From Mycobacterium sp. 050128 (GTDB lineage: Bacteria; Actinomycetota; Actinomycetes; Mycobacteriales; Mycobacteriaceae), in contig NZ_JAZGLW010000001.1 in assembly GCF_036409155.1 (NCBI RefSeq), positions 310,001 through 374,000 on the forward strand: a DNA stretch of 64,000 nt, given 5' to 3'. This document shows positions 18,510-57,940 of this stretch, piece after piece. The notes beneath the pieces were generated by a model. It saw only the letters and a program-made list of their open reading frames with translations. It was not told the origin of the DNA and made no database searches. Position numbers and translations under genes: made by a program. Within the stretch, counting starts at the first letter, position 1; every line of letters begins with the position of its first letter.

Positions 18510-18648
18510 CCGCACCGCTAGCCGAACGCCGTCGTGTCGGAAGCCCAGGCCGCGGCGACACGCCTACTGGCGATCGGCGAGCGCGTCGACAAATGTAGTC
18601 GCTACCGGCGTCTTCTTAAGTCGGACCATGTCAGACCACAGCCGCGAG

Positions 18649-18771
18649 GTGTAGCGTGAGCGTTGCTGAGGATTCCAGCCAGTCCGGAATGAGGCCAGCC
18701 GCATCGCCGCTTCCCTCACTGAGCAGTAGCTCGTGCCGAACGCACACTGCAGACAACCGCATACGGACATC
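18649..18771 (+). promoter_or_regulatory. Conserved structured leader RNA, copy A (upstream of kinase-like gene)
   Basis: The element starts with GTGTAGCGTGAG, then hairpin P1 (18665-18679, GCTG/CAGC), the core AGTCCGGAAT (18681-18690), hairpin P2 (18690-18718, TGAGG/CCTCA and AGC/GCT, 9-nt loop) and hairpin P3 (18721-18732, GAGC-AGTA-GCTC). It ends at the ATG at 18772. It shares P1-P3 geometry with copies B-E. The last, start-blocking hairpin of copies B-D is not clear here; only a small CCG-CATA-CGG stem is seen. Confidence 0.65.
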
Positions 18772-19479
18772 ATGAACCCCTTTCGAGCCGAAAATGTCGC
18801 CCTCGGGACCGACTTCCTCGACCATGCCGGGGTGGCGCTGGAGCTGGACAATGCCCTAGAACACGCTCGCCATCTGACTGTGCTGGCCGACCGTGAGCGG
18901 ATCGCACATAAGCTCAACGACCATGTGATTCAGCAGATCTTCGCTATCGGTTTGGATCTGCAGGGCACCATCGCCCGGTCTCGATCGAGCGAGATCGCCG
19001 CTCGGCTGAACCGGTCGGTCACCGACCTGCAGAACGTGATCGAGGACATTCGCACCACCGTCTTCGAATTGCACGTCACCGGCACACAGCGGATCGGCTT
19101 TCCACAGCGGATTCGCGCTGCAGTCGCCGACCTGACCGAAAACCGCGATATCGCCACGACACTACGGATGCGCGGGCCAATGAGCGTGATCGGCGACGAC
19201 CTGGCCGCACACGCTGAGCGGGCCATTCTGGAAGCGGTCAGCTACGCCGTCCGACGCTCTGGGGCAACACAATTGACCATCGCGGTGACCGTTGCCGACG
19301 CACTAGACGTCACGGTCACCGACGACGGCTGCGCAATCAGCGCCGAGAATGTGGGTCGCAACGGACTGGCCAACATGACATCCCGCGCCGAAGAGATCGG
19401 CGGGAACTGCTACCTCACAACACCACCGGGAGGCGGCACCGAAGTGAACTGGACCGCACCGTTGCTCGCCTGCCATTGA
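18772..19479 (+). CDS. DosS/DosT-like histidine kinase core, catalytically degenerate
   Basis: About 235 residues corresponding only to the HisKA_3 plus HATPase_c part of DosS/DosT; the GAF sensor domains are absent. The dimerisation box reads ADRERIAHKLNDHVIQQIF, where DosS has ...ARDLHDHVIQRLF: the phospho-accepting His is Asn (N49). The N-box reads EAVSYAV where DosS has EAVSNAV, so the ATP/Mg-binding Asn is Tyr (Y158). The D-box is DDGCA instead of DNGRG. These changes make autophosphorylation unlikely. The ATG at 18772 directly follows leader copy A and is preferred over a GTG at 18733 lying in the leader. It could be a pseudokinase partner or a decaying gene; no frameshift is present. 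Confidence 0.8.
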   Translation: MNPFRAENVALGTDFLDHAGVALELDNALEHARHLTVLADRERIAHKLNDHVIQQIFAIGLDLQGTIARSRSSEIAARLNRSVTDLQNVIEDIRTTVFELHVTGTQRIGFPQRIRAAVADLTENRDIATTLRMRGPMSVIGDDLAAHAERAILEAVSYAVRRSGATQLTIAVTVADALDVTVTDDGCAISAENVGRNGLANMTSRAEEIGGNCYLTTPPGGGTEVNWTAPLLACH

Positions 19480-19518
19480 CCTCAGGCCACCCCAGTGAAC
19501 CGGCGCCGGGCTAGGCGG

Positions 19519-20769
19519 TCAGCACCGCGTAGGGCACCGACGCCACTGGCGGACCGCTGCGATCGCCGTGTTGAGCCCGCGGCGGCGTCCTGTTGCTGGA
19601 TCGGTCCCCCCGAAACCGGGCCCCAGTTCGGCGAACATCCGCTCGCTGCGGGTCTCCGGAGCATCGTCGGCGGTATCGCGCAAGTAGCGGTCCGGCAGTG
19701 ACAGTTTGGCGATGGTGCGCCACGTCTTGCCGTACTGCATCAGGAAAGAGCCTGTGGTGTAGGGCAAGTCGTACTTCTCGCAGACGTGCCTGACCCGCAC
19801 CGAGATCTCGTGCAAACGGTTACTGGGCAGATCAGGGTAAAGGTGATGTTCGATCTGATAGCAGAGGTTGCCGCTCAGGAGCCGCAACACCGGCCCGGCC
19901 TCAAAGTTGGCACTGCCCAGCATCTGGCGCAGATACCACTGCCCCATCGTTTCGCTGATCATGTCGATCTTGCTGAATTTCTCTGCGCCATCAGGAAAGT
20001 GACCACAAAAGATCACCGCGTCGGCCCAGATGTTGCGGATCACATTAGCCAGCACGTTGGCCCTGAACACCGACTTATAGGTCGCCGCCGGCGACAGCGA
20101 CGTCAGCGCCGGGAACGCGACGTAATCCTTGACCAACTGTCTGACGGCCTTGATCGAGAACTCACGCACCTGTTCCAACGTGATGTCGCGCTCCGCACCA
20201 GCCTTCAAGAGCTTGCCGAGCTCGATGGGCTGAAAACCAATTCCCCACTCAAAGCCGACCGCAAGGACGGCGTTGAACAGCAGGTTGCCGACGTTATACG
20301 GCTCCCACGGTTGATCACGAGTAACACGCAGGATCGCGTAGCCCACGTCGTCATCCATCCCGACGATGTTGGTGTACTTGTGATGCTGAAAGTTGTGGGT
20401 CGATCGCCAATGCTTAGACACCGCACTCATGTCCCACTCCCATGTCGAGGAATGGACCTCGGGATCATTCATCCAGTTCCACTGACCGTGCATCACGTTG
20501 TGGCCGATCTCCATATTCTCGATGATCTTCGCCACACCCAAGGTCACGGTTCCCGCCCACCACACCGAACGTTTGGAGGCACCGGCCAGCAGCAACCGAC
20601 CGGCGACATCGAGGGCACGTTGCGCACCAATGGTGCGACGGATATAGCGCGCATCACGCTCACCCAGCGAATCCTCAATATCCAGCCGAATCGCATCCAG
20701 CTCAACACCCAGACTCTCGATGTCAGCCTCAGTCAAATGGGCGAAGGCCGGAATGTCAGTAATCGCCAT
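19519..20769 (-). CDS. desA3: DesA3-like membrane fatty-acyl desaturase
   Basis: The 416-residue protein closely resembles DesA3 (Rv3229c, 427 aa), the stearoyl-CoA delta-9 desaturase. The three His clusters are present: GHNVMHGQWNWM, HNFQHHKYTN and YQIEHHLYPD. The end APETRSERMFAELGPGFGG...GRRRGLNTAIAAVRQ follows DesA3 and then differs, giving a C-terminus ~11 residues shorter that ends CPTRC. The NADPH reductase partner gene (Rv3230c) is not adjacent. ATG 20769 gives the family start MAITD. It converges on the kinase-like gene with a 39-bp gap. Confidence 0.92.
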   Translation of the reverse strand: MAITDIPAFAHLTEADIESLGVELDAIRLDIEDSLGERDARYIRRTIGAQRALDVAGRLLLAGASKRSVWWAGTVTLGVAKIIENMEIGHNVMHGQWNWMNDPEVHSSTWEWDMSAVSKHWRSTHNFQHHKYTNIVGMDDDVGYAILRVTRDQPWEPYNVGNLLFNAVLAVGFEWGIGFQPIELGKLLKAGAERDITLEQVREFSIKAVRQLVKDYVAFPALTSLSPAATYKSVFRANVLANVIRNIWADAVIFCGHFPDGAEKFSKIDMISETMGQWYLRQMLGSANFEAGPVLRLLSGNLCYQIEHHLYPDLPSNRLHEISVRVRHVCEKYDLPYTTGSFLMQYGKTWRTIAKLSLPDRYLRDTADDAPETRSERMFAELGPGFGGTDPATGRRRGLNTAIAAVRQWRRCPTRC

Positions 20770-21105
20770 GGTTTTCCCCTCTAAGTCTGGTTTCTGTGTC
20801 GGATTCCCCAGCATTGATCGGCAACGATGAACTCGGGGTTACCGCGGCTGTTGCGGCCAAGCCAACGACAAGCGTCCTATCGATAGGCCAGGCCACAACT
20901 GGCTACGGCTGTTTCGGTTCCTGCTAGGCAGCGGGCTCAGGTGTTTCCGATGCCTGTCCGGCTTACCCAATTTGTCAGCCCGCCAACATTATTCGTTGTT
21001 TTGACGGCGACCGGTGACTGCCCCGCGGTGATAAGAGGCGGCGGCTCGTCGCGGAGCGCGGCCTCGACCGTCCGAGCCCGGCCGTCACTGGATAAATCTG
21101 GCCGG
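20770..21105. other. Gene-free interval upstream of desA3-like gene
   Basis: These 336 bp lie between the desaturase start and the end of the DUF6131-type gene, both on the minus strand. Only an AGAGGGG ribosome site before desA3 is recognisable. The leader-RNA motif found five times elsewhere in the island is not visible on either strand, and open frames across it have no protein-like character. Confidence 0.6.
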
Positions 21106-21285
21106 TTAGTAGTAGTGGCGGCGGCCGCCGACAGCGTGTCCCGTCCGTCCCGCCACCGCGAGTATCACGCCGACCACCAGGAGGATGACCCCGATGACCA
21201 AGCAAATATGGGCGTAGGCGAAGGTGGGGACGAGGGCAGGGAGGAGCAGCCCGAGGACGATAAGGACGATTCCGAGAGTGATCAT
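21106..21285 (-). CDS. Small two-helix membrane protein, DUF6131-type
   Basis: A 59-codon frame starts ATG at 21285 and ends TAA at 21108-21106. The product begins MITLGIVLIVLGLLL, continues with a second hydrophobic helix (CLVIGVILLVVGVIL) and ends VGGRRHYY. This pattern of two short hydrophobic helices with a terminal GGRRHWY-type tail fits the DUF6131 family of tiny actinobacterial membrane proteins. Leader copy E lies ~198 nt upstream in the same orientation. Function is unknown; the family recurs near stress genes, in my recollection. Confidence 0.7.
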   Translation of the reverse strand: MITLGIVLIVLGLLLPALVPTFAYAHICLVIGVILLVVGVILAVAGRTGHAVGGRRHYY

Positions 21286-21482
21286 GACGTTACCTAGCTT
21301 CTTTCTAGAAGTTTGAAAAGAGAAGGCCCGAGTCGGAGCGTGAAGGTCTCATTCGGCTTGCTCTGCAACTGATTTGGGTTGCGTGCCGATCGTCGCGGCC
21401 TTGCGGGTGCGACGCGGCTTGTCCCGCCGGCACCGGTCACATGGCCGGCAAACCGACGGGCGAACCGGGTGAACGGGGTGTT

Positions 21483-21611
21483 GGTGGCCGTCCGAGTTCG
21501 GGGATAACCGGAGGAATATACGGCGCGAGCAAGACGCTCATCAAGTTCAGCGGCGTACAGCCAAACTCTCACCGGACTGGCTGAAGGACTCAGCAACAAC
21601 AACATTACCCC
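21483..21611 (-). promoter_or_regulatory. Conserved structured leader RNA, copy E (upstream of DUF6131-type gene)
   Basis: Read on the minus strand from 21611: GGGGTAATG, hairpin P1 (21594-21580, GCTGA/TCAGC), core CCAGTCCGGT, hairpin P2 (21568-21543) in which GAGTTTGGC pairs fully with GCTGAACTT across the conserved loop TGTACGCC, and hairpin P3 (21539-21527, GAGC/GCTC). The terminal hairpin is weak (GGT/ACC) and no start codon follows at once, unlike copies B-D. A further ~198 nt separates it from the DUF6131-type gene, so an intervening gene may have been lost or the leader is longer. Confidence 0.6.
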
Positions 21612-21856
21612 TCTCGGGGACCCCCGGCTAGTTGACGGCCGAGCGCGGCACGGCCGCGGCGGTTCACCGCACGCTGCGCGCTGAGCAACCCCGTCGGTAT
21701 GCCGCCGGGAGCCTGCGTAAAGTACGCTATACCTGCGCTGAATAATCTTGCTGGAACTGGACATCCACGCCGAGGCCCGGCGCCGTACACGAGTCAAATC
21801 GGCCCCCAGCCGTAGGGAGCCGATAAGGAAATTGGTCGCTACGCACAGTCCAATGC

Positions 21857-21982
21857 GCGTAGTGTCAAGGGGGCTGAGAATTTCAGCTGGTCCGGGATGA
21901 GTTCGGCCGTCCGCCGCCCAACTCAAGGAGCATCGGCTCCGAGCCCCCACACGCCGGTGATTAATAGCACGTCGGGTCACCC
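21857..21982 (+). promoter_or_regulatory. Conserved structured leader RNA, copy B (upstream of slipin-phosphoketolase)
   Basis: GCGTAGTGTC is followed by P1 (21873-21887, GCTGA/TCAGC), core TGGTCCGGGATGA, P2 (21899-21924, GAGTT/AACTC and GGC/GCC around loop CGTCCGCC), P3 (21927-21940, GGAGC-ATCG-GCTCC) and P4 (21956-21981, GGTGA/TCACC). P4 ends one base before an ATG at 21983 and buries the GTCGGGT that would serve as ribosome site. That ATG is in frame with the slipin gene whose usual start is at 22112. Confidence 0.7.
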
Positions 21983-22111
21983 ATGACCACTTCACGTGCT
22001 TGCCGTCAACCACCCACCTGCTGGCGCACCAGATTTCGACGACGGCTGCCGCGCGGGCTTCCTCACGCACAACAACGGCTTCGATTCCCTGATATCTGTG
22101 AAGGACGCGCC

Positions 22112-22981
22112 ATGAGATTTTTGATCATTCTGGTCGCGGTGCTCCTCGTTGCCACCCTGATCGCGTTGCCACTGTCGATAAAAGTCGTGACCCAGTACGA
22201 GAAGGGTGTGTTATTCCGCCTCGGCAAGGTGGTCGGGGTTAAGGACCCCGGGCTGGCCGTGATCATCCCGGTCATCGATCGGCTGATTAAGGTGGCGCTG
22301 CGAATTGTGACGATGCCGATCCAGTCTCAGGGCATCATCACCCGCGACAACGTCAGCGTTGATATTTCGGCGGTCGCTTACTTCCGGGTTATCGACGCGG
22401 TGAAATCGGTGGTCGCCATCGAGAACGTCCACGCCGCGATCAACCAGATCGCGCAGACCACGCTGCGCAAGGTTGTCGGCCAGCACACCCTTGACCAGGC
22501 GCTGTCGGAGACCGACACCATCAACGCCGATATTCGAAAGATCCTCGACATCGCGACACTCGAATGGGGTGTCGAAGTGACACTGGTCGAGCTCAAGGAT
22601 ATCCAGTTGCCCGACAGCATGAAGCGCGCGATGGCTCGGCAGGCTGAGGCTGAGCGCGAGAAACGCGCCAAAATCATTGCGGCAGAGGGCGAGTCGATGG
22701 CCGCGGCCGCGTTGGGCGAGGCGTCGGACACGATGATGGCGCACCCGTTGGCCCTGCAGCTGCGCAACCTGCAAACGCTTGTCGAACTCGGCGTGGAGAA
22801 GAACACCACCATCGTGTTCCCGGCGCCTCTAATGAGCGCGATCGGTGAACTGGGCGCCTTCCTTGCCAGAGAAAGTGCTGCCGCCGCGCCCGTACCCCAA
22901 CCGGCCAACGCGAATAGGGCGGACACGTCAACGCAACCCGGGCACCGGCCCGCGAACGGCCGGGCTTCGGAGTCAAAATGA
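22112..22981 (+). CDS. Slipin/stomatin-like SPFH-domain membrane protein
   Basis: The 289-residue protein has one N-terminal membrane helix ([19 protein letters not shown]), an SPFH/PHB domain ([64 protein letters not shown]) and a charged coiled-coil ([21 protein letters not shown]). These proteins form oligomeric membrane microdomains. ATG 22112 has an AAGGA site and gives the family start, but the frame is open from ATG 21983 immediately after leader copy B, which would add an Arg-rich 43-residue N-terminus. Its stop overlaps the phosphoketolase start by 4 nt. Confidence 0.9.
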
Positions 22982-25452
22982 CAAGCAGCACAATGACGAC
23001 CCGAACCCTCGAACCCGAACTCCTGCACCAGATGGACGCCTACTGGCGGGCGGCGAATTATCTGTCGGTCGGCCAGCTCTACCTGTATGACAACCCGTTG
23101 TTGAAACGACCGCTGCGGCTATCGGATGTGAAACCGCTCGTCGTCGGCCATTGGGGAACGACGCCGGGTCAAAACTTCATCTACGTGCACCTGAACCGGG
23201 TCATCACGAAGTACGACCTGGACATGTTCTACGTCGCTGGCCCGGGCCATGGCGGCCCGGCCCTGGTCGCCAATACCTACCTCGAGGGCTCCTACACTGA
23301 GATCTATCCCGACATCAGCCAGGACGAATCCGGCCTCAAGAAGTTGTTTACCCAATTCTCTTTTCCCGGAGGCATTTCCAGCCACGTGGCACCCACGACG
23401 CCGGGTTCGATCCACCAAGGTGGGGAGCTGGGCTACTCGCTGAGTCACGCGTTTGGCGCTGTTTTCGACAATCCCGGCCTAGTCGTCGCGTGCGTGATCG
23501 GTGACGGTGAGGCCGAGACCGGGCCACTGGCCACGGCCTGGCATTCCACCAAGTTCCTCAACCCGATCGGCGATGGGGCGGTGCTGCCGATCCTGCATCT
23601 GAACGGCTACAAGATCAGCAATCCCACCGTGCTGGCCCGCATCGAACACGAAGAGTTGGACCAGTTCCTGCGCGGCTGCGGTTGGGAGCCCCGCTACGTC
23701 GAGGGTGAGGATCCCGAGTATATGCATGAGCTGATGGCCACCGCCCTCGATGAGACGGTGGAGGCCATTCACGGGATCCAACGCGACGCTCGAACCGCCG
23801 GCGATACCACCCGCAGACCCTGGCCCGTGATCGTGCTGCGCTCCCCCAAGGGCTGGACCGGACCCAAAGAGGTCGACGGTCGGCAGATCGAAGGCACCTT
23901 CCGGGCACACCAGGTGCCATTACTCGTCGACGAGCAGCATCCCGGGCACGTCGAGCAACTGGAGAGCTGGATGCGCAGCTACAGACCCGACGAGTTATTC
24001 GACCAGGCCGGACGGCTGCTGCCCGAGCTGGCTGCGCTGGCTCCTGTTGGGCCACGGCGGATGGGCGCCAACCCGCACACCAACGGCGGAGTGTTGCTGC
24101 GTGACTTGCGGATGCCCGATTTCCGCACCCACGCCGTGGCAGTCACCTCGCCGGGCGCGGTGGAAGCAGAGGACACCGCCGTGCTCGGCACTTTCCTCCG
24201 CGACGTCATCGCGCTCAACGACGAGACACGCAACTTCCGGATCTTCGGGCCCGACGAAACCCTGTCGAACATGCTCGGCGCGGTCTTTGAGGTCACCGAC
24301 CGACAGTGGCAGGCGCGCACCACCGCGAACGACGAGTTCCTCGCGCCACAGGGGCGCGTGCTGGATTCGATGCTCAGTGAGCACCAAAGTGAAGGCTGGC
24401 TGGAAGGTTATCTGCTCACCGGGCGGCACGGGCTGTTCAACTGCTACGAGGCGTTCATCCACATCGTTGACTCGATGTTCAACCAGCACGCCAAATGGCT
24501 CAAGGTCACCGCGCAACTGCCGTGGCGCCGCGACATCGCGTCGCTGACTTACCTACTCGCCTCCCATGTCTGGCAGCAAGACCACAACGGCTTCACCCAC
24601 CAAGATCCCGGCTTCCTAGACCATGTCGTAAACAAAAAGGCTGACGTCGTACGGGTCTACCTGCCGCCGGACGCCAACTGCCTACTCTCGGTTGCGGACC
24701 ACTGTCTGCGCAGCCGCCACTACGTCAACGTCGTGGTCGCCGGGAAGCGCGCGATGCCGCAATGGCTCAGCATGGACGACGCGGTGGTCCACTGCACCGA
24801 GGGCATCGGCATTTGGGAATGGGCCGGAAACGACCGCGGCGTGGAACCGGATGCGGTCCTGGCTTGCTGCGGAGATACTCCGACCCTCGAGGTACTCGCG
24901 GCCGTGTCGATCCTGCGGGAACACCTGCCCGAGTTGAAGATCCGGGTGGTCAACGTCGTGGACCTGATGAGGCTGCAGTCGGCCACCGAGCACCCGCACG
25001 GGCTAAGCGACCGCGACTACGACACCCTGTTCACCACCGACAAACACATCATCTTCGCGTTCCACGGCTACCCGAGCCTGATCCACCGACTCACCTACCG
25101 CCGGACCAACCGCAATCTGCATGTGCGCGGCTACAACGAAGAGGGCACCATCACTACCGCCTTCGACATGCGGGTGCAGAACCGCTTGGACCGTTTCCAC
25201 CTCGTCGCAGACGTCATCGACCGGATGCCCCAACTCGGCGCAACCGGCGACTACCTCAAGCAGGCGATGGCCGACAAGCTCGTCGAACACAGCCTCTACA
25301 TCAACACCCACGGCCAAGACCTGCCCGAAATCCGCAACTGGAGCTGGAATCCACCGCGAGTGACTTCGACACCGCCGATCGGCGGACGAACAGTGTTCGC
25401 AGAGTTTCCGTCGGCCAGAGCCCTCCCCGTCACACGCCGACGTCCGACATAA
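22978..25452 (+). CDS. xfp: Xylulose-5-phosphate/fructose-6-phosphate phosphoketolase
   Basis: The 824-residue protein is a complete phosphoketolase. It has [36 protein letters not shown], the thiamine-diphosphate region [16 protein letters not shown]...[10 protein letters not shown], and [17 protein letters not shown] and [16 protein letters not shown] near the C-terminus. It cleaves xylulose-5-P or fructose-6-P with phosphate to acetyl-phosphate plus a sugar phosphate, a glycolysis bypass. The ATGA overlap with the slipin stop implies coupled translation, so leader copy B probably controls both genes. Typical enzymes are ~800 residues. Confidence 0.95.
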
Positions 25453-25509
25453 GGAACAACCGGCATAATCGCTGACGCGCCCAATTCTCGGATCAGGCCG
25501 GACACATTG

Positions 25510-25800
25510 ATGGGTAGCGACATATCAGGAACGCGGCGCAGTTGGCGTGCCGCGCCCCGTCGTTGCACAACAGCCAGCCCTGGCAATGGATCGCCGAGGA
25601 TGCACGGCTACACCTCTACGTTGATCGCAACCGGATTCTCTACTCCGCCGACGAGCCGACGAGCTGCAGCTGGAACTGGCGAAGGCGTCGAAACTCACCG
25701 AATCGCTACGAGCGTACGATACCTCGTATCGTAATGAATTAAATTGTTGGACAGGTCATTTCGAAAAACCAGGTGGTCGAATTTCGGGTCCGGCATGGTG
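25510..25800 (+). pseudogene. Remnant of an Acg/Rv2032-type nitroreductase-like gene
   Basis: Two fragments in different frames match the Acg family in order. At ~25524-25660 the frame reads IRNAAQLACRAPSLHNSQPW and then IAEDARLHLYVDRNRILYSA, near-identical to the N-terminus of Rv2032. From ~25668 another frame reads LELAKASKLTESLRAYDTSY followed by NELNCWTGHFEKP, matching the Rv2032 segment around ELAAASKLTESLRLYDSSYHAE. Roughly 120 residues between them are missing, the rest of the C-terminus is absent, and the probable start (ATG 25510, MGSDI) is offset by one base from the first fragment. Acg genes belong to the DosR regulon in M. tuberculosis. The 3' end runs up to the convergent glycosyltransferase. 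Confidence 0.8.
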
Positions 25801-25805
25801 GCGGT

Positions 25806-26984
25806 TCATACCAGCGCCCGACGCTTAGCGAGAAGGCGGTGTGCCAAGTCCAGATAGGCATTGGCCACCACCGGCCAGGACATCGCCGGGGCCAACCGGC
25901 GTGCCTCCGCGGCCATCGAGCCAGCAAGGCGCGGCTCGGTCAGCACTCGGCGCAGGGCGGATGTCAGCGCATCGGGATCATTGTGCCCGACAACGATGCC
26001 CGCCCCACTGCCGAGGAGTTCGAGGGCGTGCGGGAACGCGGTCGCAACGACCGGCCTCCCGCTCGCGATGGCATCGACCAGAACACCGGAAGTGACCTGA
26101 TCCGTCGAGTCGTAGGGCAGCACCACCACGGCCGAGGACTGGACAAGCGCCGCCAGCGACGATGCATCGCGGTAGTTGGCGTCAAAGCACACCGAGTCCG
26201 CGACGCCACGCAGTCGCGCCTGTTCGGCGCGGGCGTCACGGTATGCCTCGCCATCGGCGGCCAGAACCTTTGGGTGCGTGCGGCCGGCAATCAGGTAACG
26301 CGGCCGGCCATGGAGCTCATGCAGCGAACCCATCGCCTCGATGACCCGTTCGATGCCCTTGCCCGGACCCAGCAGACCCCAGGTCAGCAAAGTCGGTCGG
26401 CCGGAACGCTTCACGGGCGTGTTCCTCGGGACGGTCGCGCCATGCGCGATCGTGGTGACTTTCCGGCGATCAACGTCGTAGCCTAGGCACAGGCGTTGCC
26501 TGGCCGCCTCCGACATAACAACCACCTGAGCGGCCGTCGCCGCGATCGTCTCGAGCACCGAACGCTGGTGAGGGGTCGGGTCTTTGAGAACCGTGTGGGC
26601 GACCACGATCGACGGGATGCGCAGCGCGCCGATGATATCCACGACTTCGTCTCCGTCGACGCCGCCGTAGATGCCGTACTCATGCTGCACGACCGCGATG
26701 TCGCTCTCGTTCAGCAATTCGGAGGCTGCAGCCACCGACGTCGCGGAACCGTTGACCAGCTCTCCGATCACCCGAGCGTCAGAAGACAACGACCCGTCGG
26801 CCACCCGTACGACGCTGACGTCAGAACCATTCGCGTGCAGCCCTTCTGACAAGGCCGCACTGAACGTCGCCAACCCACACGGTGTCGGTGCATACGTACT
26901 GAGAATGCCGAAACTCGTTGGGCCGCAACGGCCTTGCCGAACGAAAGCAGAATTCGATGATCGAAAGAGGGATAGAGCACTCAA
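25806..26984 (-). CDS. Glycosyltransferase, GT4-like
   Basis: The 392-residue protein has a GT-B layout. The N-terminal half holds GILSTYAPTPCGLATFSAALSEGL (seen in blocks STYAPTPCGLATF) and VVQHEYGIYGG; the C-terminal half holds LLTWGLLGPGKGIERVIEA and ASGRPVVATAFPHALELLGSGAG, the nucleotide-sugar binding region. Donor and acceptor are unknown; trehalose or glycolipid synthesis would fit the family. Translation probably starts at TTG 26984, directly after the last base pair of leader copy D, which fixes the start. The 3' end meets the acg remnant. Confidence 0.88.
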   Translation of the reverse strand: MSALSLFRSSNSAFVRQGRCGPTSFGILSTYAPTPCGLATFSAALSEGLHANGSDVSVVRVADGSLSSDARVIGELVNGSATSVAAASELLNESDIAVVQHEYGIYGGVDGDEVVDIIGALRIPSIVVAHTVLKDPTPHQRSVLETIAATAAQVVVMSEAARQRLCLGYDVDRRKVTTIAHGATVPRNTPVKRSGRPTLLTWGLLGPGKGIERVIEAMGSLHELHGRPRYLIAGRTHPKVLAADGEAYRDARAEQARLRGVADSVCFDANYRDASSLAALVQSSAVVVLPYDSTDQVTSGVLVDAIASGRPVVATAFPHALELLGSGAGIVVGHNDPDALTSALRRVLTEPRLAGSMAAEARRLAPAMSWPVVANAYLDLAHRLLAKRRALV

Positions 26985-27106
26985 GGTGATCCCAATTGAC
27001 GGTTATCACCGGCGTGCCCGGCGCGAGCCGTTGCTCTGCGAGATCAGCGGCGGACAGCTGACTTCATTCCGGACTGGCTGGATGCCCAACGTCACTCACA
27101 CTACAC
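26985..27106 (-). promoter_or_regulatory. Conserved structured leader RNA, copy D (upstream of glycosyltransferase)
   Basis: On the minus strand from 27106: GTGTAGTGTGAG, P1 (27090-27077, GTTGG/CCAGC), core CCAGTCCGGAATGA, P2 (27065-27040, GAAGTCAGC/GCTGATCTC around loop TGTCCGCC, one A-C mismatch), P3 (27036-27025, GAGC-AACG-GCTC) and P4 (27010-26985, GGTGAT/ATCACC). P4 ends at the base before the TTG start of the glycosyltransferase and contains its TTGGGA ribosome-site candidate in the 3' arm. Confidence 0.7.
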
Positions 27107-27117
27107 GCGATGACCGG

Positions 27118-27750
27118 CTATCGCCGCGTGAGCCCGGCCAGTATGCGCAGGCCGACGGCGTGCCGACTGATACCGGCGTCGGCACCCTCAACCGTGAGGT
27201 GGCATTCGGCTTGCTCGGGCGTGTAGCCCCGACCGACGAGGACTCCGATTGCTTGATTAATGACCGACGCCTCTAAACGGCTTGTCGCGGAATCCCGTTC
27301 GGCAGGCACCGCCAGGTGCTGATCGAGGACGAAGTCACTCAGGGGCCGGCCGGTCAGCCACGCGAGGTCCGCGGCGAGGTCGACAAAGGTTCCCGGCGAC
27401 CCCGCGTACAGGACGAGGACGACGGTCGGGAGAAGACCGACGTCACCGACACCTGGCACCGCGAGCCTGAGCGAGGTGCGGACATCACCCGTCCCGGCAC
27501 TGTCGACGAATGTGGTGAACGCGAACGGCGGATCAATGCCGTCGACGGTCACGCTCAACCCCATGAAGGTGGGTATTGCCGCGGCGGCATCGGCCGTGAG
27601 CCGGCGCAGACTATCGGCGACATCGGCGCCCGGCTCATCCAACGCCGCGGTGAGGATGCCTAGGTCTGCGGCTAGCGCCGCTGCGATCTCCACAAGGGAC
27701 TGCTCCGCTGCGCGCTCCCGAGCGCGATCGAGCGTGCCGGCGCCGCGCAC
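27118..27750 (-). CDS. ANTAR-domain protein
   Basis: From GTG 27750 the product has ~210 residues: a helical lead (LDRARERAAEQSLVEIAAALAADLG), a central GAF-like region with VTVDGIDPPFAFTTFVD, and a C-terminal ANTAR domain (LEASVINQAIGVLVGRGYTPEQAE...HAVGLRILAGL). ANTAR domains bind RNA hairpins and act as antiterminators. The frame is open to 27897, but that overlaps the upstream GAF-ANTAR gene, so the start is uncertain. It probably forms a two-gene unit with that gene. Leader copy D begins 12 bp beyond its stop, on the same strand. Confidence 0.78.
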   Translation of the reverse strand: MRGAGTLDRARERAAEQSLVEIAAALAADLGILTAALDEPGADVADSLRRLTADAAAAIPTFMGLSVTVDGIDPPFAFTTFVDSAGTGDVRTSLRLAVPGVGDVGLLPTVVLVLYAGSPGTFVDLAADLAWLTGRPLSDFVLDQHLAVPAERDSATSRLEASVINQAIGVLVGRGYTPEQAECHLTVEGADAGISRHAVGLRILAGLTRR

Positions 27751-27823
27751 GGCCGGTCGCTGTGCGTGGTGAGGATTCTCAAGACGCGAGTCAGGACCCG
27801 TCCCGTAACTGTTTCCCCGCTTG

Positions 27824-28708
27824 TTACGGTACGCCGGATGGACTCTCCGGCGTGGGTCGAGCGCGGGCGCGGGCGCGGCGCACGGCTTCATCGACAATGT
27901 GTTGGGCCACGTCGGCCAATTTGCGGTGCTGAGATTGGCTCATCGCTCGCAGTTGGGTGAACGCGTCCTCGGCGCTGCGCCCGGTACGTCCGCGGATCAG
28001 ACCGATCGCTTGATCGATCACTGGGCGGGTGGACAACGCCGTCTGCAACTGGACAGTAAGAGCAAGCGCGTCCGCAAGGATCTGCGCGTTGTGTACGGCG
28101 ACCGCCGCTGGTTTGGCGAACAACTCCCCAAACTCGGCGGCGTGCTCATCGAAAACGTCTTTGCCGTAGGCGTATACGTTGATCGCCCCGACCACGCGAT
28201 CGGGCAGCAGCAGCGGCAGCGACAGCGCGCTGTGCACCCCCAACCTGCCGACCCGTGGACCGAACCGCGGCCACATCTTCTCCCCGCCCAACGACCCCGA
28301 GCGCACCGTGCGACGTTCCAGCGCCGCCGTGATGCAGGGCCCTTCGTTGAGGGTGACGTACTGAATTTCGTCAATCTCGGCGACAAAGGGAGCGCTGGCC
28401 GCCAACGCCGCGACCATGTCGTCCACCCGGTCGACATTGAGCAGCGTGACTCCGGCACCATCGGCCCCCGGTATCGCGCGGACGGCGAACGACGCTACCT
28501 CCGCCAGCAACTCGGGCAAGCGCCGATGACCGGCGACCAGACCCGCGAGATTGCTGATCGCCGCCTGTAAATCGGCATCGTCGGCACTGAGCTGCGCCGG
28601 TGTCCGCGATCCCAGCGGTGGGTCATCAGCGTCCTCGGTGGACTCCACCATTGCCGGTACCTGCCTCATAACCTGCTGGAGCCCGGCGGCACCGGCGACC
28701 AGCCACAT
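27824..28708 (-). CDS. GAF-ANTAR regulatory protein
   Basis: Up to 294 residues. After a variable N-terminus it has a GAF domain (LLAEVASFAVRAIPGADGAGVTLLN through ALSLPLLLPDRVVGAINVYAYGK) and a complete ANTAR domain (RPVIDQAIGLIRGRTGRSAEDAFTQLR...LADVAQHIVDEAV). This is the common mycobacterial GAF-ANTAR type: a ligand- or redox-sensing GAF linked to an RNA-binding ANTAR. ATGs at 28708, 28669 and 28651 are possible starts; 28669 has an AGCAGG site. It diverges from the STAS gene, whose leader (copy C) begins 113 bp away. Confidence 0.85.
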   Translation of the reverse strand: MWLVAGAAGLQQVMRQVPAMVESTEDADDPPLGSRTPAQLSADDADLQAAISNLAGLVAGHRRLPELLAEVASFAVRAIPGADGAGVTLLNVDRVDDMVAALAASAPFVAEIDEIQYVTLNEGPCITAALERRTVRSGSLGGEKMWPRFGPRVGRLGVHSALSLPLLLPDRVVGAINVYAYGKDVFDEHAAEFGELFAKPAAVAVHNAQILADALALTVQLQTALSTRPVIDQAIGLIRGRTGRSAEDAFTQLRAMSQSQHRKLADVAQHIVDEAVRRARARARPTPESPSGVP

Positions 28709-28821
28709 ACCCAGGGCGTACCCGCCGCGAGTTGCCTACCATCCTAGGGCGAAACTGGTTGGCCGGCCTAAGGCGAGGGTGGCTGATGGCTTCCCGACTT
28801 TGGGCACTCCGGCCGACCACG

Positions 28822-28946
28822 GTGTAGCGTGAGAGCTGCTGAGAATCTCAGCTGGTCCGGGACGGGTTCAGCCGTACGCTGCTCAACCCAAGGAGCGTTG
28901 CTCCGAGCCCTGACAATCCGGTGATCGCCCGCACGACGGGATCACC
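28822..28946 (+). promoter_or_regulatory. Conserved structured leader RNA, copy C (upstream of STAS gene)
   Basis: The best-formed copy. GTGTAGCGTGAG is followed by P1 (28839-28851, CTGAG-AAT-CTCAG), core TGGTCCGGGACGGG, P2 (28864-28889, GGGTT/AACCC plus AGC/GCT around loop CGTACGCT), P3 (28892-28904, GGAGC-GTT-GCTCC) and P4 (28920-28946, GGTGAT/ATCACC enclosing CCCG-CACGA-CGGG). P4 ends at the base before ATG 28947 and hides the ACGGGA ribosome site, so the start should be blocked unless P4 opens. Confidence 0.75.
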
Positions 28947-29408
28947 ATGACCAAGACACTGTTAGACTCGGCCGCCCTGCCGGGCGATGCCATCTTCTCG
29001 ACACCTTTCTCGACGCCTTTCCCCAAGTCGCGCAACGGTCAATTGGCGTATTGGGACACTCGCTGGATGAAGTCGTCGGTGGTCATCGTCAGCGCCCACG
29101 GCGACATCGACACTACGAACGCGCATACCCTGGCCGAGTATCCACTCGCCCACCTGATGCGTTGCCGCGGACTGATCCTCGATCTGACCCGTCTGGAATT
29201 CTTTGGTGCCGCGGGCTTCTCGGCGCTGCGCAGAATCTCGGTGAGCTGCGCGGGCGCTGGAATCGCCTGGGCGTTGGTCCCGGGTGCCGCGGTATCCCTG
29301 GTGCTGCGAATCTGCGATCCGGACCGCTTGGTGCCAACCGCCGATACCGTCAGCGCGGTACTAGCGAGCCTGCACGCAGCGGCGGCCGATTCGCACTACT
29401 CCGAATAA
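28947..29408 (+). CDS. STAS-domain protein (anti-sigma factor antagonist-like)
   Basis: The 153-residue protein has a disordered ~40-residue lead and a STAS domain (SSVVIVSAHGDIDTTNAHTL ... GLILDLTRLEFFGAAGFSALRRI). In SpoIIAA-type antagonists the phosphorylated Ser lies in a DSSG motif; here the matching segment is GAAG (residues 87-90), so that switch is absent. It may be a constitutively active antagonist or a binding scaffold. The ATG directly follows the P4 hairpin of leader copy C. Confidence 0.82.
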   Translation: MTKTLLDSAALPGDAIFSTPFSTPFPKSRNGQLAYWDTRWMKSSVVIVSAHGDIDTTNAHTLAEYPLAHLMRCRGLILDLTRLEFFGAAGFSALRRISVSCAGAGIAWALVPGAAVSLVLRICDPDRLVPTADTVSAVLASLHAAAADSHYSE

Positions 29409-30013: not shown

Positions 30014-30217
30014 CTAGATGGCGGTCACTCCCACCGCTTGGGGGCCTTTATCCCCTTGGGCGATCTCGAACTGGACTCGCTGATTCTCCTCGAGCGAGCG
30101 AAAACCGCCTGATTGGATCTCAGAATAGTGGACGAACACGTCCTTTGCGCCACCGTCAGGGGCGATAAAGCCGAAGCCCTTTTCGCCGTTGAACCATTTC
30201 ACGGTCCCCTGTGTCAT
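30014..30217 (-). CDS. csp: Cold-shock protein
   Basis: The 67-residue protein is a standard CspA-type single OB-fold: [20 protein letters not shown] with RNP1 (KGFGFI), RNP2 (VFVHYSEI), ending [10 protein letters not shown]. It binds single-stranded RNA/DNA and melts RNA structure. ATG 30217 follows a GGAGAAAG ribosome site; the frame continues 14 codons upstream without support. A 9-bp inverted repeat at 30257-30301 lies in its 5' region. An RNA chaperone next to structured leaders is a suggestive, untested association. Confidence 0.95.
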
Positions 30218-30256
30218 ACTAATTTCTTTCTCCTTCACATGGATGTAATTGAGATA

Positions 30257-30301
30257 CATCCCTGTTCTCAGGGTAACATACTTGTAAAATACACAGGGAT
30301 G
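30257..30301 (-). promoter_or_regulatory. Inverted repeat in the cold-shock gene 5' region
   Basis: CATCCCTGT at 30257-30265 and ACAGGGATG at 30293-30301 are exact reverse complements with a 27-bp loop, 40 bp upstream of the csp start. It may form a hairpin in the 5' leader or be a protein-binding site. A second GGATGTA/TACATCC pair lies closer to the gene. Confidence 0.5.
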
Positions 30302-30614
30302 GCAGGTTCCAGTGACCTTGGGGGCGCTGGATGTTCTTTGACTATTTTGTGTCCAGACGTCCTTCTAGCCCTGGAAGTTCGTTCTCCAGCTCAACCACGG
30401 CGTGTGCGATGACGCTGGATGCTAAGGATGCGCGCGGCCGCCGAGATGGGCCCCGAGATTGTTGGATTTCTCGATCTTCAAGTCGGCGAAGCATGCGCCG
30501 AGAAACTCCTGCGTAGCGGGGTACGTCGTAGACACTGAAATCGCTACGAAGCCAAATCCTTCGAAATCGGCGACGACACAACTTGGAATAGTCGTGTAAC
30601 GAACCGCCGCAGTG
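30302..30614. other. Gene-free interval between cold-shock gene and add
   Basis: The 313 bp upstream of csp and downstream of add hold only short frames on both strands (for example minus 30342-30581, 79 codons), none with a recognisable domain or ribosome site. This is the right border of the accessory island; no direct repeat, integrase or tRNA marks the junction. Confidence 0.5.
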
Positions 30615-31703
30615 CTAGCCGATCAGCACCGCATACCGCGGCTTGATCACGTCGTCGATCAGCGCCAGCCGCTGGTCGAACGGAATGAACGCCGACTTCA
30701 TCGCATTGATGGTGAACCGCTCGAGGTCGCTCCATCCGTAGCCGAAAGCCTCTACCAGCCGGTGCATTTCGAGACTCATCGTGGTGTCGCTCATCAGCCT
30801 GTTGTCGGTGTTGACGGTCACTCGGAACCGCGCCCGGGCCAGCAGATCGAACGGGTGGTCGGCGATGCTCTTGACCGCGCCGGTCTGCACGTTCGAGCTC
30901 GGGCACAATTCGAGAGGAATTCGCTTGTCGCGCAGGATCGATGCCAGCCTGCCCAACTCGACACCGCGGCCCTCGACGACTTCGATGTCGTCGACGATGC
31001 GCACGCCATGGCCGAGCCGGTCGGCCCCGCAGAACGCGATCGCCTCGTGAATGGACGGCAGACCGAACGCTTCACCGGCATGAATAGTGAAGCGCGCGTT
31101 ATGGTCTCGCATGTATTCGAACGCGTCCAGGTGTCGCGTCGGCGGATAGCCGGCCTCGGCACCGGCGATGTCGAAACCGACAACGCCCTTGTCCCGGAAG
31201 CGAATTGCCAGCTCGGCAATCTCTCGCGACATCGCGGCGTGCCGCATCGCGGTGACCAGAAGACGCGTGACGATCGGGCGGCCCGCCGCGGCGGCGGCCT
31301 TCTCGCCGGCGGCGAAGCCCTCCAGCACGGCATCGACGATCTCGTCGAAGGAAAGCCCGCGGTTGATGTGGAGCTCTGGCGCGAAACGGATCTCGGCGTA
31401 CACCACGGAGTCGGCAGCCAGGTCTTCCACGCACTCGTAGCCGACCCGGAACAGCGCGTCCGGCGTCTGCATCACGGCCACGGTGTGCGAGAACGGCTCC
31501 AGATAACGCTCCAGTGAACCGCTGTGCGACCGAGTGCGAAACCAGGTCGCCAGCTCGTCGGCGTCGGTGGCGGGCAGCTCGTCGTAGCCGATCTGGCCGG
31601 CGATGTCCAGCACGGTCGACGGGCGCAATCCCCCGTCGAGGTGATCGTGCAGCAGTGCCTTCGGCGCTTTCTGGATCTGCCGCAATTCCAGTGGGGCGCT
31701 CAC
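30615..31703 (-). CDS. add: Adenosine deaminase
   Basis: The 362-residue protein matches Rv3313c (365 aa). It has the metal-binding [12 protein letters not shown] (HxH), [29 protein letters not shown] and [13 protein letters not shown] motifs of the adenosine deaminase barrel. It deaminates adenosine and deoxyadenosine to inosine forms, feeding DeoD. Its ATG overlaps the deoA stop by 4 nt; cdd-deoA-add is one operon. Confidence 0.95.
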
Positions 31704-32998
31704 GAGGCCATCCCAATGATCAGCGGTCGCGGCGGCGGTGCCTTGTCGCCCACGCTCCAGCCGCGGTCCAGCTCGGCCATCGCGGCGCCGAGGCGTTCGG
31801 GGGTGTCGGTGTACAGCGTGAACAACGGCTCACCGGCGGCAACCGGCTGCCCCGGGCGCCGATGGATCCGGACGCCGGCGCCGGGCTGCACCTGCCCACC
31901 CGGACGGGATCGTCCCGCGCCGAGTCGCCAAGCTGCCAGCCCCACTGCCATAGCGTCGATGTTCCCCATTGTGCCGCTCCGCGGCGCGATCACGGTCTCT
32001 GAATGTGAACCGATTGGCAACGGTAGCGACAAGTCACCGCCCTGGGCCGCGACCAACCGGCGGAAGCGGTCCATCGCGGTGCCGTCGTGCAGGGTCTGGG
32101 CGGGATCACGGCCGTCGATCCCGGCCAGCTCGAGCATCTCGACGGCCAGCCGGATCGTCAGCTCCACGACGTCGGGCGGTCCGCCGCCGCCCAGCACCTC
32201 GAGCGCCTCGGCGACCTCGAGCGCATTGCCGACCGTCGCGCCCAGCGGGCTGTCCATATCGGTCAGCACCGCACGCGTGGGCACACCGTGTGCCACACCG
32301 AGCCCGACCATGGTTTCGGCCAGTTCGCGGCATTGCTCCTCCGACGACAGGAAGGCGCCGCCACCGACCTTGACGTCGAGCACCAGCGCGCCGATGCCCT
32401 CGGCCAGTTTCTTGCTCATGATCGAGCTGGCGATCAACGGCAAGGAGTCGACCGTGGCGGTGATGTCGCGCAGCGCGTAGATCTTCTTGTCGGCGGGGGC
32501 CAGCTCACCGGCGCCGAAGATCGCCGCCCCGATATCGCAGAGTTGTTGGTGCACTTGATGTTTGGATATCGTCGCGCTGAACCCCGTGATGGATTCCAGC
32601 TTGTCCAGAGTACCGCCGGTATGGCCGAGACCACGGCCGGAGACCTTGGGCACCGCACCACCACAAGCGGCGACGACGGGCACCAACACCAGCGTGGTCT
32701 TGTCGCCGACCCCGCCGGTCGAATGCTTGTCCACGGTGGCCAGCGGTTTACCACCGGACCGCAGATCGCTGAAATCCAGCCGGTCGCCCGAAGCCAGCAT
32801 CGCCGCTGTCCACCTGACGATCTCGCCGTGGTCCATGCCACGCCAGAAGATCGCCATCAACAGCGCCGCCATCTGCTCCTCGGCCACGCGACCATCGGTA
32901 TAGGCCGCCACGACCCAATCGATTGCGGCATCGGACAACCGAGCCCCGTCACGTTTGGTCCTGATGACCGTCGGGGCGTCGAATGCGAAGTCAGTCAA
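31700..32998 (-). CDS. deoA: Thymidine phosphorylase
   Basis: The 432-residue protein matches Rv3314c. The family signature is clear: [20 protein letters not shown] and [16 protein letters not shown], plus [11 protein letters not shown] and the C-terminal barrel-sandwich domain ([19 protein letters not shown]). It phosphorolyses thymidine and deoxyuridine to base plus deoxyribose-1-phosphate. It overlaps cdd and add by 4 nt each. Confidence 0.95.
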
Positions 32999-57818: not shown

Positions 57819-57940
57819 GGTCATGAGCGCCAGCATCAAGCCCCGGCTTGCTGGCCGGCAACCCTCCAACCGCGGTGGGGTGCCCCGGGTGATGACCAGG
57901 TTGAGTAGCCATAGCACCGGCTATCCGGCAAGCGCGGGTC
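57819..57940 (+). promoter_or_regulatory. SAM-IV riboswitch upstream of metC
   Basis: From GGTCATGAGCG at 57819 through CAAGCCCCGGCTTGCTGGC, GGCAACCCTCC, GGTGGGGTGCCCCGGGTGATG and GGCAAGCGCGGGTC at 57940, the sequence follows the mycobacterial SAM-IV riboswitch almost base for base, including the P1 closing stem, the SAM-binding core and the pseudoknot partner. It lies 174 bp before metC and should reduce expression when SAM is plentiful. Confidence 0.95.

Follow-up and report, generated by a model that had tools for sequence, protein, structure and literature searches.

A five-helix leader RNA of Mycobacterium with a putative role in translation control and a GAF-ANTAR protein as candidate partner

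Within a window of 64,000 nucleotides (nt) of Mycobacterium sp. 050128 (contig NZ_JAZGLW010000001.1, positions 310,001 to 374,000), five copies of a structured element, here called leaders A to E, lie ahead of genes in a stress-gene island. We propose that these elements form a 5'-leader RNA family that is absent from Rfam, that would control translation through a helix at the start codon, and that is likely directed by a protein with a GAF and an ANTAR domain; we put the probability of this proposal somewhat below even, at about 0.45. The leader is found genus-wide in Mycobacterium, with a patchy occurrence in other Actinomycetes, so that what had been described as a local five-copy family has proved to be far more widespread.

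Structure and covariation of the leader

The original prediction, made from the letters of this DNA alone, had placed five copies with a common order of parts, each pointing at the next gene. Places, strands, order and orientation all hold, and a scan of the window with a full-length covariance model (R3) reports exactly five leaders, at 120.5 (D), 106.0 (E), 95.0 (C), 78.7 (B) and 75.2 bits (A), all five having belonged to the training set of that model. The original prediction covered the first two thirds of the element, but conservation does not end at the hairpin then taken to be the last, and extends as far as the start codon. The architecture comprises a 5' hairpin, P1; a helix, P2, which encloses the hairpins P3 and P4 (numbered second and third in the original prediction); and then a helix P5. 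P2 is formed by GUCCGG and by CCGGAC directly behind P4, and closes a three-way junction. GUCCGG had earlier been regarded as an invariant unpaired core, whereas it is the 5' strand of a helix whose partners co-vary (GUUCGG/CCGAAC, GUGCGG/CCGCAC, GUACGG/CCGUAC). The 5' strand of P5 was considered as an alternative partner for this strand and rejected: by eye, GUUCGG and GUGCGG change with CCGAAC and CCGCAC, and not with the P5 strand. P5 itself is formed by GGUGA and UCACC, to which an inner CCG...CGG is often added, and ends at the start codon.

The pairing was examined in an alignment of 81 of 152 leaders, made with MAFFT and not fitted to the structure, from which 12 poorly aligned leaders had been removed by hand and the rest thinned at 83% identity. 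Here, 84.6% of 2700 cells are paired, and two-sided changes occur in 29 of the 34 pairs, amounting to 213 cells compared to 89.8 in shuffled and 44-86 in slid controls. Per helix, pairing reaches 94.4% in P1, 87.8% in P2, 86.9% in P3 and 88.6% in P4. A second MAFFT alignment draws on 59 matches in genomes that had not contributed to R3, of which 50 were retained and nine, with lower scores or irregularities, were left aside; 87.4% of its cells are paired, and its 83 two-sided changes compare to 32.8 in shuffled and 36-56 in slid controls. The 37 rows from Mycobacterium were picked by a model that contains neither P2 nor P5 (R2, see below), their ends being set by R3, while 11 of the 13 rows from outside the genus were found by R3, so that there the pair test leans towards the model. 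A structure-fitted alignment of all 59 agrees, with 186 two-sided changes against 67.3. The pairs are therefore kept, with two-sided changes above both kinds of control, in line with the earlier claim of a selected structured RNA. An all-against-all covariation analysis without a given structure was set aside, since it mixed helix pairs with subtype signal.

In 81 of 131 leaders, the P3 loop, YGUMCGCY, can be read as G(UNCG)C with a pyrimidine mismatch beneath it, compared to 1.5% of shuffled loops, and would in that case fold as a UNCG tetraloop. Unpaired columns with at least 85% conservation number only five in the 81-leader alignment behind the -10-like box described below: two are in the P3 loop, and three in or beside P5. 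On its own, the core pattern YRGTCCGGRAYGRRG gives 11 matches at up to two mismatches where 10.5 are expected, and does not pick up copy B. As a sufficient signature it was rejected, this count not being above chance; the ordered, paired element is needed.

The promoter side and the start codon

Ahead of P1, TAnnnT is present in 77 of 81 leaders, at a spacing of 7 nt in 66, 8 nt in 10 and 6 nt in 5, which places all 81 within 6-8 nt. The start motif GTGTAGYGTGAG of the original prediction is indeed present; it is, however, probably a -10-like box that is not transcribed, and so not part of the RNA. Because of the usual promoter spacing from such a box, transcripts would start at or beside P1. 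No shared strong -35 motif was found upstream of the 152 leaders.

The other end of the leader is similarly constrained. For the geometry and the gene tallies we used 152 leaders, one of the 39 matches in one set (L127:131-201) being omitted. A P5 of at least 4 base pairs (bp) ending 0-2 nt ahead of a start codon occurs in 114 of the 152, compared to 33% of mononucleotide shuffles, and in 91 of those 114 the start codon is 39-43 nt behind P4, a nearly fixed distance. The 3' strand of P5 carries a GGA, 5 nt ahead of the start codon, that is likely a Shine-Dalgarno sequence. The open reading frame (ORF) opened at this codon shares the frame of the called gene in 63 leaders, is shorter than 90 amino acids (aa) in 45, and is another ORF in 6. 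For genes of GT4 glycosyltransferases and STAS-domain proteins, the start codon at P5 mostly coincides with that of the gene; many SPFH, ATPase and kinase genes are preceded by a short ORF that begins there. In four SPFH leaders (L283, L285, L293 and L294) these ORFs are 31-41 aa long with similar N-termini, and may represent a conserved leader peptide.

Distribution across genomes

A covariance model built from the five window copies (R1) matches six places in the genome they come from and, with a cut-off of E <= 0.001, recovers the leader from 68 of 198 genomes of Mycobacterium. R2, built from 114 matches, finds it in 157 of 396 at E <= 1e-4, with up to 11 copies per genome. Beyond the genus, six of 201 genomes of the family match R1, one of them not Mycobacterium; R3 matches 21 of the 298 genomes searched in the order, nine of which are outside the genus, and 11 of 246 genomes of the class, seven of which are outside the order. 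Two of the seven match strongly, G843 at 88.7 bits and G828 at 82.2 bits; the other five, from one family, score 36-43 bits. A further genome scan yielded, among the 80 loci listed, 21 mycobacterial ones and 2 from Pseudonocardiales; the others look like chance.

A GAF-ANTAR protein as candidate partner

Between leaders D and E lies a gene on the minus strand (27824..28708) for a protein with an ANTAR (Pfam, 7.2e-17) and a GAF_2 domain (1.6e-15). Homologues at E <= 1e-40 are present in 71 of 198 Mycobacterium genomes, and their distribution follows that of the RNA: scoring the RNA by R1 or R2, 65 genomes have both, 11 the RNA only, 6 the protein only and 116 neither, while R1 alone gives 60, 8, 11 and 119, respectively. 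Of the 60 genomes that have both when R1 is used, 36 carry the gene no more than 3 kb from an RNA and 48 no more than 15 kb, and for 49 of the 152 leaders it is found within 1.5 kb of the fetched DNA. Among 14 stretches from outside the genus, six contain a GAF-ANTAR homologue (L265, L268, L269, L271, L274, L276) and five an SPFH homologue (L265, L267, L269, L271, L276).

We transferred the RNA-contact positions of EutV, in the numbering given in PMC8934654, to 53 GAF-ANTAR orthologues through an alignment. Two of these contacts are largely kept (R142 in 53 of 53, R168 in 47 of 53), and five are replaced: M172 by Q in 53, K147 by Q in 52, K143 by P in 48, K149 by I or V in 53, and Y164 by F or L in 52. 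As it is suggested in PMC8934654 that Met172 of EutV may exclude smaller loops, its replacement would fit recognition of another RNA.

Comparison with known RNA classes

The suggestion that the element belongs to no known riboswitch class agrees with Rfam 15, which at gathering score has no match for the leader in the whole window. The sole match in the window is a SAM-IV riboswitch at 57819-57940 (+), at 114 bits. A permissive search returned a single unrelated match below threshold for window positions 18600-29000, and likewise a single one, below threshold and unrelated, for nine loci with other leaders. Thus none of the three outcomes that would have spoken against the original prediction of a selected RNA of no known class has come about: covariation is present, the element keeps its relation to gene starts, and Rfam offers no match. 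No description of the leader was found in the titles and abstract openings of the open-access literature, a search that leaves most subscription journals and supplements uncovered, so that an earlier description is possible.

RNA targets of actinobacterial ANTAR proteins are described in PMC8164766 as having long been unidentified, and the same article, citing earlier work, reports repression of translation for mycobacterial ANTAR RNAs, which is the precedent for the direction of control. The leader resembles the ANTAR-target RNAs presented there in being tied to an ANTAR protein, with translational control as the proposed outcome; an ANTAR target is expected to lead genes that are linked to, or co-occur with, such a protein, and the RNA is present in 65 of the 71 GAF-ANTAR genomes. 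The form of the RNA differs, as the targets in PMC8164766 are two short stem-loops with A1/G4 hexaloops, compared to five helices and altered ANTAR contact residues here. Relaxing one loop of such a pair gives 25 of 131 leaders against 23.7 in shuffles. For a single A1/G4 hexaloop, the minimal motif of PMC8934654, at most nine of 81 leaders share one alignment column within the RNA (column 133, in P5); 11 of 81 share column 5, which is inside the -10 box. With the EutV system of PMC8934654 the protein has in common a full ANTAR domain in which R142 and R168 are mostly kept, but EutV has a receiver domain and acts by antitermination, whereas our candidate has a GAF domain and replacements at Met172, Lys147 and Lys143.

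The atypical B12 riboswitches of Mycobacterium tuberculosis with upstream ORFs (PMC11260477) are likewise structured mycobacterial leaders in which a short ORF takes part in control; they differ from the leader in structure and genes, and no cobalamin-riboswitch match was obtained for the latter.

In general, riboswitches that sequester the ribosome-binding site consist of a junction domain with a helix behind it that covers the start region. The leader has this same layout, with a conserved structured 5' domain borne out by the pair counts and P5 at the start codon as putative expression platform, but it has few conserved unpaired residues, and a protein as candidate partner.

Proposed mechanism and alternative readings

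How could such a leader act? Transcription would begin at P1, about 7 nt behind the TAnnnT box. P2 would then close the junction holding P4 and P3, the latter mostly capped by G(UNCG)C, and P5 would fold over the start codon and the likely Shine-Dalgarno GGA, thereby hiding the start signal. Upon a signal, the GAF-ANTAR protein may bind the P1-P4 part and alter whether P5 forms. Where the start codon at P5 opens a short ORF ahead of the gene, control would therefore have to pass via coupling or polarity. In its widest form, which we offer only tentatively and hold to be somewhat more doubtful, this would be a genus-wide post-transcriptional stress regulon. One family of GAF-ANTAR sensors would recognise, in place of the A1/G4 hexaloop, a leader with a three-way junction and a UNCG-type loop, and would set the translation of up to 11 genes per genome. 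If true, this would constitute a second mode of RNA recognition for ANTAR proteins, and a large mycobacterial regulon defined by one leader RNA that stands ahead of as many as 11 genes per genome. As a dozen kb of DNA contains the leader, the gene set and the candidate sensor, ANTAR recognition without a hexaloop is directly testable in vitro.

We must take into account that several observations weigh against this proposal. P5, on which translation control would depend, is the weakest helix (74.8% paired in the 81-leader alignment, 59.9% in its inner part), and copies A and B of the window are without it, only C, D and E carrying it. The 45 short ORFs of under 90 aa mean that in those leaders the start codon at P5 is not that of the called gene. 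A mismatch at one pair of P2 affects 21 of 80 rows in the first alignment and 24 of 49 in the second; by eye, this is mainly the case in leaders of SPFH, STAS and desaturase genes. RNAalifold, applied to the first alignment, predicts neither P2 nor P5, and yields P1, P4 and the inner part of P3 with two unlikely pairs inside the P3 loop. Single sequences, folded at 37 °C only, give the model structure for D, E and L281, and a fold without P2 or P5 for L283; folding z-scores for D, E, L281, C and L283 are -0.49, -2.00, -2.41, -0.11 and 0.57, so that three of the five have an ordinary folding energy. As for the protein, a close GAF-ANTAR homologue is missing in 11 of 76 RNA-bearing genomes, and the co-occurrence (Fisher 3e-33) is not corrected for descent, which inflates the association. 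Finally, the canonical ANTAR motif of PMC8164766, two A1/G4 hexaloops with a linker of 2-25 nt, occurs in one of 131 leaders compared to 2.3 in shuffles.

The 11 genomes without a close homologue would be expected if the leader were an orphan riboswitch, with P1-P4 binding a small molecule made under stress, P5 serving as the expression platform, and the GAF-ANTAR protein being a mere frequent neighbour. An aptamer-like junction that leads into a helix covering the start region, ahead of many unlinked genes per genome, would suit this view as well. Metabolite aptamers are, however, expected to have a conserved unpaired core, and the five conserved unpaired columns are fewer than that expectation; nor is there an obvious metabolite common to the gene set. 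We consider a riboswitch unlikely, albeit worth keeping in mind.

Improbable, too, and to our judgement slightly more so, is a constitutive module. A hairpin at the 5' end and a compact fold would shield stress mRNAs from decay or fix a low level of translation with no specific trans factor, and P5 may open through temperature or growth state alone. The predicted place of P1 at the very 5' end and the high diversity of the genes behind the leader speak for such a module, but a covarying three-way junction is more elaborate than protection by a hairpin, or a simple thermometer, would require, and the association with one GAF-ANTAR family would have no part in it.

Transcription attenuation, with the leader or the short ORF choosing between termination (Rho or intrinsic) and read-through, could draw on the 45 leaders of 114 in which a short ORF follows P5 and on antitermination by ANTAR proteins elsewhere, as described in PMC8934654 and PMC8164766. 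Yet P5 directly abuts the start codon, and since the ORF is in frame with the called gene in 63 of 114, there is no room for a terminator in these, though no scan for terminators was made; we take this to be a very improbable account. Least credible of all is an element acting in the DNA only, be it a promoter with operator repeats or a small mobile repeat: copies are several per genome, often clustered, and share a -10 box, but the covarying helix encloses two hairpins, the place between -10 box and start codon is fixed, and a blastn search with leader D found nothing in the plasmid or the phage collection, on which ground a plasmid or phage origin was also rejected.

The copies in the window and the surrounding genes

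The best match, leader D (26981..27106, minus strand), has a -10-like TAGTGT at 27103-27098 and the start codon TTG at 26984-26982. Its helices are P1 at 27090-27077, P2 at 27074-27069 with 27021-27016, P3 at 27065-27043, P4 at 27036-27025 and P5 at 27010-26985, and this structure is the minimum-energy fold. Leader E (28822..28950, plus strand; TAGCGT at 28825-28830, ATG at 28947) also shows all five helices in its minimum-energy fold: P1 at 28838-28852, P2 at 28855-28861 with 28908-28914 (one mismatch), P3 at 28864-28889, P4 at 28892-28904 and P5 at 28920-28946. Leader C (21857..21986, plus strand; TAGTGT at 21860-21865) has P1, P3 and P4, a P2 with two mismatches, and a 7-bp P5 that adjoins the ATG at 21983; its minimum-energy fold contains P1, P3, P4 and outer P5, with a different P2.

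The remaining two look like decaying members of the family. Leader A (18649..18775, plus strand; TAGCGT at 18652-18657, ATG at 18772) retains P1-P4 and has lost its outer P5 through substitutions; with a mismatched P5 it failed the test for a P5 at the start codon. Leader B (21487..21610, minus strand; TAATGT at 21607-21602) also retains P1-P4, and by eye the P5 and start codon of its close relative L041 are gone from it, apparently through a short deletion. A sixth leader in this 6.73-Mb genome (C5:52008) is ahead of a second GT4 glycosyltransferase gene.

Gene families in the island were assigned with Pfam. Leader A precedes a truncated ORF for the C-terminal part of a histidine kinase (HisKA_3/HATPase_c; 18772..19479, plus strand); a relative in L051 has 609 aa, and relatives have GAF domains in front, a part that this gene lacks. 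Behind leader B are a small DUF6131 membrane protein (21106..21285, minus strand) and, as second gene, a fatty-acid desaturase (19519..20814, minus strand). Leader C is followed by an SPFH/Band 7 protein gene (21983..22981, plus strand), in frame with the ORF from the leader's start codon, and directly after it by a phosphoketolase gene with XFP domains (22978..25452, plus strand). A GT4-type glycosyltransferase (25806..26984, minus strand) stands behind D, and a STAS-domain protein (28947..29408, plus strand) behind E.

As for the nearest listed family on the same strand behind the 152 leaders, GT4 glycosyltransferases are the most frequent (71), followed by STAS (16), SPFH (15), DUF6131 (10), GAF-type kinases (7) and desaturases (6), with 27 other or unassigned. 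Single representatives include a cation-transporting P-type ATPase, arginine deiminase, an amino-acid permease, an S30AE/HPF-like protein and a cutinase, as well as a CRP-type regulator, a GH130 protein, a HAD hydrolase, a cupin, a cyclase-like protein and one GAF-ANTAR protein. The combination of phosphoketolase, arginine deiminase, GAF-type kinases, cation ATPase, S30AE/HPF-like protein and desaturase suggests energy or redox stress. Membership of the DosR regulon was rejected: using what we take to be the DosR box consensus, no box with up to two mismatches occurs in the window, and genome-wide there are 93, compared to 99 for a reversed-pattern control. Clusters of DosR-like boxes at G000 C3:553-569 kb and C4:360-366 kb probably belong to the DosR regulon.

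Several smaller observations concern the island itself. It matches plasmid records only in parts, the annotated ones being phosphoketolase, slipin or desaturase. An ORF between leader D and the GAF-ANTAR gene (27118-27897, minus strand) has no Pfam match; its homologues adjoin the GAF-ANTAR gene in many relatives, and by eye its C-terminus is ANTAR-like. The border of the island, at 30014-32998, consists of a cold-shock-like gene followed by genes that are presumably homologues of add and deoA. L041 retains the cold-shock/add border, and elsewhere the island genes are arranged differently. In L080, L111, L124 and L126, a pair of leaders stands back to back, 78-195 nt apart, each ahead of one of two divergent genes.

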